Shown here: piece after piece, positions 13,933 through 17,999 of the stretch
Position numbering within the stretch: position 1 is the first letter of the stretch
How the letters are laid out: each line of letters opens with the position of its first letter
Assembly (NCBI GenBank): GCA_025055115.1
Contig: JANWYJ010000088.1
Span: 25,840 to 89,839, forward strand
Reading direction: 5' to 3'
Length of the DNA stretch: 64,000 bases
From: Gemmata sp.
GTDB lineage: Bacteria > Planctomycetota > Planctomycetia > Gemmatales > Gemmataceae
Notes under the pieces: generated by a model
The model's database searches: none
The model's input: only the letters and a program-made list of their open reading frames with translations
Told to the model about the DNA's origin: nothing
Program-made: the position numbers and the translations under genes

Positions 13933-15411
13933 CTACGGCGCGGGGAACTTGTTGGGATCGGTCACGATCGGGTCGAGGGGGTCACCGTTGAGGGCCTTCA
14001 GATACAGCACCAGGTCGGCCTTCTCCTGAGCGGTGAGGTTGAGCTTCAAGGGGATGATGGGCCGTTTGGCCGGGCCATACGTCTTCACGTTGGGATCGAC
14101 GGGTTGGCCTTGGGCACGGGCGCGGATGTAGGCCGCCTCGGCTTCGGTATCTCGCATCTTTTCGCTCAGCCACGGATTGACGTTGCCGCCACGATCATAA
14201 AACTCCACGACGGCTTCCAGGGTTTTCTCTTCACCACTGTGAAGGTAGGGGGCCGTCCAGAGCAGGCCGCGGGTGCCGGGGGTTTTGAAGGCCCCGATCA
14301 TGCTTGGGTCTTTGTGTCCAGGCGGCAGGGCGGCGAAACGACCAAATTCGCTGGGGGGTAGTTCACCGTCTTTGGCCCCCACCCCTAGATTGTGGAACGA
14401 ATGGTCAGTAAATGTATCACCGGTGTGACAATTCGAGCAGCGGGCTTTGCCGAAGAACAGTTCGCGGCCGGCCAGAATCCGTTTGGCGTATTCGTCGATT
14501 TTCCCGGCGTCTTTCTCAGCATCGAGGCCGAGGTCTTTCAGTACACTGCTTTTGGCCGCGAATTCGGCCTTTAAGGCCTTGGCGTAATCTTCGGCTTTCA
14601 GTACAAATTTGCCGCTCTCTTCTTCGATGACTCGTTGCCGCATCAGAGCGTTGGCTTTGTCGTCGAGGCTGTTGCCCAGAAGGATCGTGCGTTCGTAGGT
14701 GGCGATGGCTTTGGCTGCGGCATCGCGGGTTGGGGCATGGCCGAAGACCCGATAGAACGCCTGCACGTAGCTAGGGTTGGCGCGGATGCGGGCAATCGCT
14801 TCTTCCCAGGGGTCTCCTTTGCCGGCGAACATTTCTTTGTCGTTGCCGACGGGGCCTTGGGCCTGTTCTTCTAACGAGGCGGCGCGGCCATCCCAGAATT
14901 GGAAGCGGTTGTAGGCCGCGTTGAAGATCGTTGGCGAGTTGATTGGCCCAATGGCGCTGTTGATACCGGTCGATGTTCTCTTGCCATCTGAGAAGCCGCG
15001 ATTGGGGGAATGGCAACTGGCACAGGATACGGTATTGTCGGTCGACAGAATGTTGTCGTAGTACAGTCGTTTGCCCAGCACCCATTTCTCAACGGTCATC
15101 GGGTTTTCGGGGGGCACTGGGGGAGCTTGGGTCAGGCCTAATGGGACTTTGATTTTCACGACTTTCTGGGTGATTTTTTGGCCAGTGGTCGGGTCGATGG
15201 TTTCTTGCGTGCCTTCGTTCCAGTAGCTGTTGAGTGTCTTCCATTCGGGTTGATTCATCGTCACAAACAGGATCGGCACGCGATCCTTGAACGGTGTCAT
15301 TTTGGATTCGTCGGGCAACAGGTAGTTGGCCGAATCGGGTTTAGGCTGCGCTGCGGCGAAGCCGGGTAGCAGCATGAGAGCCGCCAGGGAGAGTAAGCGT
15401 GTGTGTGTCAT
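13933..15411 (-). CDS. Di-haem cytochrome c peroxidase (MauG/CcpA family), secreted
   Basis: About 492 residues with an N-terminal signal peptide (LLSLAALMLLPGFAAAQ) and two CxxCH haem sites: CASCHSPNRGFSDG near residue 131 and CSNCHTGDTFTDHSFHN near 320. The spacing and the GFSDG and TPGTRGLLWTAPYLHSG motifs match bacterial di-haem peroxidases and MauG-like proteins. It works in the periplasm, reducing hydrogen peroxide or oxidising a partner. The usual length is 320-350, so this copy carries about 60 extra residues before the first haem and an extended insertion between haems. I prefer the second ATG (15411) because AAAGG lies 6 nt upstream of it; the first ATG at 15417 would sit on the ribosome site. 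Confidence 0.88.
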   Translation of the reverse strand: MTHTRLLSLAALMLLPGFAAAQPKPDSANYLLPDESKMTPFKDRVPILFVTMNQPEWKTLNSYWNEGTQETIDPTTGQKITQKVVKIKVPLGLTQAPPVPPENPMTVEKWVLGKRLYYDNILSTDNTVSCASCHSPNRGFSDGKRTSTGINSAIGPINSPTIFNAAYNRFQFWDGRAASLEEQAQGPVGNDKEMFAGKGDPWEEAIARIRANPSYVQAFYRVFGHAPTRDAAAKAIATYERTILLGNSLDDKANALMRQRVIEEESGKFVLKAEDYAKALKAEFAAKSSVLKDLGLDAEKDAGKIDEYAKRILAGRELFFGKARCSNCHTGDTFTDHSFHNLGVGAKDGELPPSEFGRFAALPPGHKDPSMIGAFKTPGTRGLLWTAPYLHSGEEKTLEAVVEFYDRGGNVNPWLSEKMRDTEAEAAYIRARAQGQPVDPNVKTYGPAKRPIIPLKLNLTAQEKADLVLYLKALNGDPLDPIVTDPNKFPAP

Positions 15412-15560
15412 AATCATCCTTTCGACAGAGGAAGCGAGCCGGAGTTGGTCACGTGTTGGATGATGGCCTGCTAGCTGAAATTAACCGACAACTACGGACA
15501 TTGACAACCGGTGAGCCAGGCGAAAACACTACTGTATCGTTAGCCCTCTCTGCGGTAGAG

Positions 15561-16139
15561 TCAATCCGCGGAAGTATCGGAGGAGCGATCATGTGAAATT
15601 GGTTTTGCCGATGGAAGTTGACGCAGCAATTCAGTGACCGTCGGGCGATCCGTCGGGTCGGCCGAGCGGTACGCGAACAGCACGCGACGCTCGCGGGAGA
15701 TCAGGAAATCGCCCCCGAGCTGGAGGAGGTCTTCGCCGCGGTAGGGTCGTTTCACCCCATAGCCCCGCAGCATTCCACGGAAGTAGCCGATCAGTACCCG
15801 CGGCCGGAAGAACGTCCACCAGCCGGTCCGCTCTAAACCCAAGGCCGTGTAGGCCGTGCGCTGTGGATCACAGACCAGTGGAACGTGCCATTCCACGCGT
15901 GCCAGATACTGGGCCAGCACCTCGGGTGCCGCTTGCGCTACGGCCACAACGGAACAGCTCCGCGCAGCGAACAGCTCGCGGGCGGCGTCCACCTCACCGA
16001 GGTGGGCATTGCATGGAATTCACGCCAAATGACGCAAAAAGACCAACAACAGATACTCCGCCGTGCACAATGCCGACAGCCGGACGCTCGAACCATCCGG
16101 CTTCCAAAAGGTGAAATCAGGCAGTTCGTCGTGACTCAT
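15561..16139 (-). CDS. Peroxiredoxin-like (AhpC/TSA_2, SelU-like) selenoprotein with in-frame TGA read as selenocysteine
   Basis: Plain ORF calling gives only a 143-residue fragment from a GTG at 15992. Reading upstream in the same frame gives ATG at 16139, then MSHDELPDFTFWKPDGSSV, then VFLRHLA, TGA (16020-16022), IPCNAHLGEV, and straight into the fragment. FLRH-x-x-C-x-x-C-x-x-x-L is the active-site motif of the AhpC-TSA_2 (Prx-like2) family; the TGA falls on the first cysteine, giving U-x-x-C at residues 40-43. A hairpin with a GGU loop follows the TGA (15989-16005), as in bacterial SECIS elements. The remainder has the family's DPQRTAYTALGLERTGW. The product is 192 residues. It is the last gene of the exopolysaccharide operon; its ATG overlaps the end of the glycosyltransferase gene by 23 bp. 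Selenium genes (selA, selB, selD, selC) are not in the window, so translation of the TGA is inferred. Confidence 0.82.
15989..16005 (-). promoter_or_regulatory. Bacterial SECIS-like hairpin
   Basis: On the minus strand, 14 nt after the TGA codon, CCACCTC (16005-15999) pairs perfectly with GAGGTGG (15995-15989) around a three-base loop GGT. The loop is 22-24 nt after the TGA. Bacterial SECIS elements are hairpins just downstream of UGA, within about 16-37 nt, with a small apical loop whose G residues contact SelB. Position, stem and loop all agree. It lies inside the coding region, encoding part of the AHLGEVD stretch. Confidence 0.72.
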
Positions 16140-17196
16140 GGCCGTCCACTGTTGGTTGGCCGCGAAGAAGTGTGCGTTGGGCCATTAACCCGCGCCGGGG
16201 CCACAGCCGCATCCGGAATTGATGCACCACTTCGCTCCAGAAACCATAGGCAAAGCCGAAGTGAATCGCCACAAACACCCCTGGGATGCGCACCGCCACT
16301 GCCGCGGGCTTCCGCCAACCCAAAATCCCCGCAGCCACCATCAAGACGCTAGCATACAGTGCCAAGCTCGCCAACCACAACCCACCCACTGTCGGCCACA
16401 CCCACCCGAGGCTCGCTCCCCCCAGCACCCACAGCGCCCACAGCGGCGGAACTAGCGCCGGCACCGTCAGCGAGTGCGGATGCTTGAATGCCAGTTTCGC
16501 CCGGCCCCGGCCATAGCGGCTCAATTGATAAAACAACGCACGGAAATTCCGCCGCGGTTCGTACACGACCTTCACCTGCGGGGTGAAGTAGCAGCGGAAG
16601 CCCGCGGCATGCACCCGTTCGTTGAATTCCACGTCTTCACACGCATCAAAGGCTTGATCGAACAGACCGATGGTGTGGAAAACCTGGCGGGTATACGCCA
16701 CCGCGGTACTCTGCGGAGCGACAAACTTCGCGTCGTGAGAATAAATATCCGAATCGGGGTTATGCCCCAAGGGGCTGCTGCGGGCCAGGCTGACGGCTTG
16801 TTGGAAGGGCGTGGCGTTGGCAATTTCGAGGGGCTGCGGACGACCGAGGCAGTCGGCCCCGCTGGTTGCAAACGCCGTCGCGACGTTCTGCAGATAATCG
16901 CGGCTGGGGATGTGGCAGTGGCCATCGACGATGACGACAACATCCTTGGTGGCATGACGAATCGCCGTGTTTCGCCCACAAGAGGCTAACCGTCCGGGGT
17001 TGAAAACAAGCTTCAGATTCGCAAACTCGCCCTGGAGGCGGCGGACAATCGGTACGGTGTCGTCCGTGGAGGCCCCATCGGCGACAATCACCTCAAATTC
17101 ATGCGGTGGAAAGTCTTGTGTCAACAGCGCACGGAGTGTCGGTTCAATCGACCGTGCTTCATTCCGCACCGGGACAACAACCGAGATTGTCGGCAC
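16117..17196 (-). CDS. Family 2 glycosyltransferase, ExoA-like (exopolysaccharide)
   Basis: The enzyme core starts ISVVVPVRNEARSIEPTLRA, then has the DGASTDDT motif, VVIVDGHCHIP (metal site) and a downstream FDACEDVEFNERVHA (ED-containing acceptor motif). A hydrophobic C-terminal part (about residues 245-310) suggests membrane attachment, as in ExoA/succinoglycan-type transferases. I start at a GTG (17196), 14 nt after GGGGGG and just before the conserved core; the longer frame adds 52 low-complexity residues with no homology. About 359 residues. It lies between the sugar transferase gene and the selenoprotein gene, whose ATG it overlaps, so the three are co-transcribed. It adds a sugar to the lipid-linked repeat unit. 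Confidence 0.85.
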   Translation of the reverse strand: MPTISVVVPVRNEARSIEPTLRALLTQDFPPHEFEVIVADGASTDDTVPIVRRLQGEFANLKLVFNPGRLASCGRNTAIRHATKDVVVIVDGHCHIPSRDYLQNVATAFATSGADCLGRPQPLEIANATPFQQAVSLARSSPLGHNPDSDIYSHDAKFVAPQSTAVAYTRQVFHTIGLFDQAFDACEDVEFNERVHAAGFRCYFTPQVKVVYEPRRNFRALFYQLSRYGRGRAKLAFKHPHSLTVPALVPPLWALWVLGGASLGWVWPTVGGLWLASLALYASVLMVAAGILGWRKPAAVAVRIPGVFVAIHFGFAYGFWSEVVHQFRMRLWPRRGLMAQRTLLRGQPTVDGHESRRTA

Positions 17197-17255
17197 TTCA
17201 CCATCCCCCCAACAATTGCCCCAACCCCGCCCACGGCCGCCACACTTCGGGCCTT

Positions 17256-17999
17256 TCACTCCGTGGGTATCCGCGGCGCCCGGTAGTAGAGTCGCTTGAG
17301 GCCGAGCATTTTCAGCCCGGTGGCCAGAAGAATGAACAATTCCAGCCGCCACGAGCGATGGCGGATGTAGAAGAGATCGTACACGAGTTTATTGCGCACG
17401 CTGCGAAGGCACGAATCCGGCGGCAGATGAATTTGGGCAAACCCGGTGATACCAGGGGTGACCGCGTGACGGCGATCGTAACCGACCACTTGTTCACGGA
17501 GCTGCTGAACAATTTCCGGCCGCTCGGGGCGTGGTCCGACAAGGCTCATTTCGCCTTTGAGGACGTTGAATAACTGGGGCAGTTCATCCAGATGCAGTTT
17601 CCGTAGGACACGCCCGAGGGGGGTGATGCGGCGGTCGCCCGGTCGGGACCACGTTGGCCCGGTGTCTTTCTCACAATCGTGATACATTGTGCGGATTTTG
17701 TACAGTGTGAAGACACGACCGCCGCGGCCAACGCGGGTTTGCGTGTAGATGGCCGGCCCCCGTGAGGTGAGCCGCACCAGCACCATCGCCCCCAACAGAA
17801 TCGGAATAGCCGGTATGAGCAGCAACACGGCCATGACCTTATCCAAGGCCGCCTTGGCCTGTTCGTTGAAGGGGTAAGGCGGGAGGGCCGGCGAGTCGCC
17901 CCAGGGGGGCTGTCTTCGCAGCGCCGGTTGTGCGGGCGTTCGCAACGCAGACCTCGGGCTGAACCGGACAGGCGACAAACGACTGGCTCGTTGGACCAT
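17256..17999 (-). CDS. Undecaprenyl-phosphate sugar (bacterial sugar) transferase
   Basis: A 247-residue member of the bacterial sugar transferase family. It has one transmembrane segment (about residues 53-77), then TRVGRGGRVFTLYKIRTM, the HLDELPQLFNVLKGEMSLVGPRP catalytic motif with its DE pair, and ITGFAQIH. It joins the first sugar phosphate to undecaprenyl phosphate, starting each repeat unit at the inner face of the membrane. The four-helix N-terminal domain of WbaP-type enzymes is absent, so it is the short monotopic form. It is preceded by EpsI and followed by a glycosyltransferase in one operon. The ATG has AGGA 11 nt upstream. Confidence 0.92.
   Translation of the reverse strand: MVQRASRLSPVRFSPRSALRTPAQPALRRQPPWGDSPALPPYPFNEQAKAALDKVMAVLLLIPAIPILLGAMVLVRLTSRGPAIYTQTRVGRGGRVFTLYKIRTMYHDCEKDTGPTWSRPGDRRITPLGRVLRKLHLDELPQLFNVLKGEMSLVGPRPERPEIVQQLREQVVGYDRRHAVTPGITGFAQIHLPPDSCLRSVRNKLVYDLFYIRHRSWRLELFILLATGLKMLGLKRLYYRAPRIPTE

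Follow-up and report, generated by a model that had tools for sequence, protein, structure and literature searches.

Peroxiredoxin-like selenoproteins are already known, among them SelL, whose motif we take to be U-x-x-U (U, selenocysteine, Sec). We analysed 64,000 nucleotides of Gemmata sp. (contig JANWYJ010000088.1, positions 25,840 to 89,839; this whole stretch is called the window) and describe on its minus strand a new gene of this known kind, which encodes a SelL-related redox protein in which the UGA at codon 40 is very probably decoded as Sec with the aid of a predicted selenocysteine insertion sequence (SECIS) hairpin. SelL, known from fish, invertebrates and marine bacteria, is, like the window protein, peroxiredoxin-like (PMC2398784), and its Sec lies within a redox motif (PMC2397514), as the predicted Sec40 does. 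By description it is set apart by two Sec, two residues apart (PMC3316567), against one predicted Sec and one Cys here. The two-Sec diselenide of SelL proper has no counterpart in the window gene, which has a single predicted Sec codon and cysteine at codon 43.

Other described groups come close in fold or motif. SelU/PRXL2 proteins share the predicted fold and carry C/U-x-x-C at the first helix, where the structure model also places the motif of the window protein. AhpC/TSA selenoproteins (PF13911/cd02970) belong to the same Pfam family and have Sec first in the motif, but theirs is U-x-x-S rather than U-x-x-C (PMC9312934, PMC13188914). Peroxiredoxin-like thiol:disulfide oxidoreductase selenoproteins (PF00578), compared by description, carry U-x-x-C or U-x-x-U, the former being shared by the window protein, and bacterial peroxiredoxin-like selenoproteins are tabulated with U-x-x-C in PMC13188914 and PMC9312934. 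The gene itself appears in no title or abstract opening of the planctomycete selenoprotein and SelL-related literature covered, a coverage that mostly lies outside subscription papers; none of six names looked for occurs in the main text of PMC12013277, on a predictor of bacterial selenoproteins; and an Rfam scan of the 64-kb window gave no match above any gathering score.

The interrupted frame, its family and its conservation

The gene is a minus-strand frame broken once. It starts with an ATG at 16139 and runs for 192 codons with exactly one internal stop, the TGA at 16022-16020, which is codon 40. Read-through gives FLRHLA-U-IPC-NAHL, in which codons 40-43 form U-x-x-C. An earlier sequence-only reading had proposed this start, this single TGA and a 192-residue product with U at position 40, and its coordinates proved right to the base. 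It had also set the TGA on the first active-site cysteine of an AhpC-TSA_2 protein. Both points hold: Cys is the aligned residue in three relatives (L030, L040 and L047), and the read-through protein matches AhpC-TSA_2 (PF13911) with 60.6 bits, above the gathering score of 27 bits. PF00578 also matches, at 49.1 bits, below the PF13911 score.

Judged by sequence, SelL-related is a better family name than SelU. The curated model NF040769, "SelL-related redox protein", matches the read-through product with 199.5 bits (residues 5-174 against model positions 2-172 of 173; curated cut-off 120 bits). The kinship with SelU put forward by the sequence-only reading survives at the level of the predicted fold, which is that of a peroxiredoxin, the closest solved structure being prostaglandin F (PGF) synthase (SelU3) at 21% identity in the structural alignment, but not in the curated sequence match, which is to SelL-related proteins. 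A sequence search of solved structures with E up to 1 returned no PGF synthase chain, only three weak asparaginase matches.

The TGA is shared across the family. We searched 95 genomes of the window's family, 63 of which gave matches to the window protein, and aligned 69 places among the matches listed residue by residue. Codon 40 is TGA at 59 of the 69 (59 genes from 58 of the 95 genomes, the window's own counted), and the interruption is TGA in 59/59 interrupted genes, never TAA or TAG. Codon 43 encodes Cys, as TGT or TGC, in all 59. The other ten places comprise three Cys forms of the same family with no stop inside (L030, L040 and L047, respectively 60%, 50% and 41% identical to the window protein) and seven distant peroxiredoxins (L081-L087), which we do not count as Cys forms of the SelL-related family. 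Wherever relatives without a stop were checked (sets of 10, 5 and 3), the aligned residue was Cys in every one. Assemblies of one contig (G010, G074 and G087) carry the TGA gene too. One genome, G026, holds both a Cys form (L030) and a Sec form (L060), a natural pair for comparison.

The same codon is interrupted elsewhere in the phylum. A phylum-wide draw of 392 genomes gave, among the matches listed, 53 above the NF040769 cut-off. Twenty of these carry one TGA, the window being one of them, and all 19 others have it at the same codon as the window; this check covered matches above the cut-off. Two of the 19 (L113 and L116) retain the codon-40 TGA with Ala (GCG) or Ser (AGC), not Cys, as the second motif residue. 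These two may bridge the U-x-x-C and U-x-x-S types.

Both sides of the TGA are under constraint. We compared the gene with L010, a 78% identical relative from a Gemmata sp. metagenome-assembled genome; this genome is apparently that of G023/L020, and the two count as one. The ratio of nonsynonymous to synonymous substitution rates (dN/dS) is 0.16 over codons 2-39, against 0.18 over codons 41-191, and dS is 0.75 in each part; by this measure the protein parts before and after the TGA evolve alike, under purifying selection. The L010 frame ends in a TGA at the place matching the window's terminal TGA. A midpoint-rooted tree of 71 forms, Sec and Cys together, built without L083-L087, needs six label changes, five of them forced by well-supported branches; because of the midpoint rooting it does not orient the changes between Sec and Cys.

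We lean, by a little, towards a wider interpretation, in which a phylum-wide planctomycete clade of selenoenzymes is mostly unseen and Sec, the common state at the first motif position in the Gemmata family, is kept by some members even without the second-position Cys. The clade would be largely unseen because gene callers start after the Sec codon, and the U-x-x-A and U-x-x-S members, in keeping Sec, would mark selenium and not the Cys pair as the essential catalytic feature.

Hairpin and selenocysteine genes

A SECIS-like hairpin follows the TGA. It begins 14 nt past the UGA, with 21 nt between TGA and loop, and alone folds at -10.0 kcal/mol. The published bacterial SECIS model (PMC13188914) has a loop of 3-9 nt, a stem of 4-16 bp, a spacing of 16-37 nt from the UGA, a G in the first two loop positions and a minimum free energy of at most -7.5, and the window hairpin agrees with every one of these. 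A simplified model, limited to unbroken stems, fits 47 of the 59 TGA genes against 127 of 1763 TGA triplets within the window; among the ten Cys rows it fits only L030.

Pairing in the hairpin is kept across homologues. The outer pair (17,33) links a codon's wobble base with position one of the codon six further on, and is paired in 31 of 38 distinct sequences, with 16.0 expected after shuffling. Where the wobble base lies in an Ala codon, 21 of 24 are paired against 10.3 expected, and sliding the partners by 1-3 columns gave no excess pairing. On the protein tree, 7 of 13 changes at this pair are double and keep it, as counted in one parsimony reading. An excess is likewise seen at pair (20,30) (37/38 against 30.2). 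The 42 nt past the TGA fold better than synonymous-codon shuffles (mean z -0.88, 44 genes), as does the 42-nt segment from -3 (mean z -1.06), and the other segments scanned are mostly no better than the shuffles.

Judging by its genes, the host is able to make selenocysteine. Its assembly, 98% complete at 4.93 Mb in 100 contigs, holds selA (563.9 bits), selB (with GTPase, SelB beta-barrel and SelB-wing_3 domains; 401.7 bits together with its neighbour in the frame), selD (390.1 bits) and a tRNA-Sec (72.9 bits; likewise called tRNA-Sec by ARAGORN, anticodon tca), spread over four different contigs. PMC4807772 reports full Sec gene sets for Gemmata obscuriglobus and Isosphaera pallida. In one genus of the family, L040 (genome G003, Cys form) and L041 (G002, TGA form) both come from assemblies without selB above the cut-off or a tRNA-Sec of at least 60 bits, and selenium use may be in the course of being lost there. 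One further genome, G029, has two separate selB matches above the cut-off (C896 and C1405).

Several results weigh against Sec insertion aided by this hairpin. The hairpin named in the sequence-only reading is present, fits the published model and co-varies, but its own single-sequence folding energy is unexceptional (z -0.59; 48 of 200 shuffles fold as well). Pair (23,27), the innermost, has no significant excess (25/38 against 21.3) and breaks 8 times on the tree, and the outer pair breaks 4 times. A segment at offset -63 also folds mildly better than shuffles (mean z -0.56; Stouffer -3.32), and summed folding z values are inflated because the rows are related. The simplified model fails for 12 of the 59 TGA genes, 7 of them (L066-L071 and L075) from genus g36. 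In six tables across genomes, neither selB nor tRNA-Sec is significantly associated with the TGA gene (selB Fisher p 0.39); the gene does not track selB because 81 of the 95 family genomes have selB above the cut-off, and we do not use co-occurrence with selB or tRNA-Sec as support. Four genomes, 75-92% complete (G002, G048, G067 and G082), carry the TGA gene with neither selB above the cut-off nor a tRNA-Sec at the 60-bit threshold of the genome comparison, for which either missing contigs or decay of the system may account. As a candidate SECIS element, the hairpin convinces by comparison across homologues, not by its own energy.

The g36 genes deserve separate mention. All seven keep the TGA with the standard hairpin register broken, and they may use another SECIS shape.

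Competing explanations and database records

Database records of this family mostly begin past the TGA. A protein database search gave 408 matches, and our counts cover the best 120 of them, including the window's own truncated frame (P0002). As the sequence-only reading had expected of a gene usually recorded short, 118 of these 120 start past residue 40, 115 of them at implied residue 50, a GTG. Just two span the site, P0003 and P0005, and both have Cys there; P0005, which comes from Frigoriglobus tundricola, bears the NCBI name SelL-related redox protein. Many of the 120 are unnamed or carry general labels such as hypothetical protein or peroxiredoxin. One of the homologues, P0045, is a 150-residue protein of Gemmata obscuriglobus. 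The GTG starts are best read as a gene-calling effect, because codons ahead of the TGA are kept in frame and L030, L040 and L047 are uninterrupted.

Taken at face value, the same records suggest two open reading frames, with the TGA as a genuine stop, codons 1-39 as a short or dead frame, and a working protein that starts at the GTG of residue 50. That start exists and most of the best records use it, but the picture is very improbable: codons 2-39 are kept in frame at a dN/dS of 0.16, the Cys forms have no internal stop, a start at residue 50 would deprive the structure model of its opening strands and of most of its active-site helix, and an interruption that is always TGA would be left without a reason. 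A pseudogene, or a sequencing or assembly error, would need only one base to turn an ancestral TGT or TGC into TGA, and errors do occur in draft assemblies. But the TGA recurs in 58 of 95 genomes, one-contig assemblies included, and in 19 phylum-wide members, with purifying selection on both sides, which leaves that account next to no room.

UGA might also be read by a route other than Sec, through leaky read-through or reassignment (to Trp, for example). Read-through needs no machinery, and the four incomplete genomes in which selB and tRNA-Sec went undetected fit such a route. We consider it highly unlikely all the same, since the gene's own end is apparently UGA, which makes wholesale reassignment unlikely, and since Cys is aligned in each stop-free relative checked, the genome holds tRNA-Sec, selA, selB and selD, and the hairpin co-varies. 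The sequence-only reading had itself named three outcomes contrary to Sec: a genome without selB or selC, a TGA explained by sequencing error, and homologues that all begin at the GTG. The genes it had proposed looking for elsewhere in the genome, selA, selB, selD and the selC tRNA, were all found; error fails against a TGA shared by 58 of the 95 family genomes; and the GTG starts, although the rule among the best 120 records, are best accounted for by gene calling. None of the three holds, and decoding of codon 40 as Sec is therefore supported.

From these observations we infer Sec insertion, a SECIS role for the hairpin, and a proposed chemistry and substrate. SelD would produce selenophosphate, SelA would convert Ser-tRNA-Sec to Sec-tRNA-Sec, and SelB, holding the hairpin, would bring the latter to the UGA of codon 40, while the UGA of codon 193 would keep its usual meaning as a stop. 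Helix 41-52 of the predicted structure would have Sec40 at its N-terminal end. There Sec40 could attack a peroxide or a disulfide and then form a selenenylsulfide with Cys43, which thioredoxin would reset.

If this is right, planctomycetes gain a conserved Sec enzyme, and 118 of the best 120 database proteins lack their active site. Named Gemmata strains have truncated records, so Sec decoding in the phylum is directly testable.

Genomic setting

The features of the locus are collected in Table 1. Its neighbours recur at homologous loci: among L020-L048, taken with up to 1.5 kb of flank on each side and some of them cut by contig ends, a glycosyltransferase gene lies upstream at 17 of 29 and a di-haem peroxidase gene downstream at 19 of 29 (L049-L087, n=39, have too short a flank and are excluded). 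Neither neighbour was found at the longer locus L102 (G003) or at seven phylum-wide loci (L089-L095).

Table 1. Features of the SelL-related locus in window coordinates
Feature	Position	Strand	Basis
SelL-related redox protein gene, predicted selenoprotein, 192 codons plus stop	15561..16139	-	frame, PF13911, NF040769, homologues
In-frame TGA, codon 40, predicted selenocysteine	16020..16022	-	frame; homologue alignment
Cys43 codon (TGC), predicted resolving cysteine of U-x-x-C	16011..16013	-	frame; homologues
SECIS-like hairpin, 17 bases: 7-bp stem CCACCTC/GAGGTGG, loop GGT	15989..16005	-	folding; homologue comparison
Downstream GTG (Val50), start in database records; within hairpin 3' arm	15990..15992	-	open reading frame 15561..15992
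Terminal TGA (codon 193), taken as ordinary stop	15561..15563	-	frame; matching TGA in L010
Family 2 glycosyltransferase gene, upstream neighbour, 23-nt overlap with start	16117..17352	-	profile match
Di-haem cytochrome c peroxidase/MauG gene, downstream neighbour	13933..15417	-	profile match

The wider minus-strand region at 13933-17999 keeps sugar transferase, glycosyltransferase, SelL-related and di-haem peroxidase genes together in many relatives, odd company for a small redox protein. In the gap between the gene and the MauG gene (15461-15560, minus strand), about 100 nt of 3' flank are near-identical to L010 (G023), while within the gene many codon third positions differ. We ruled out a repeat, as a 29-nt core occurs once each in 2 of 19 genomes of the genus. 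A leader, a terminator and a small RNA are the candidates for this conserved 3' flank.
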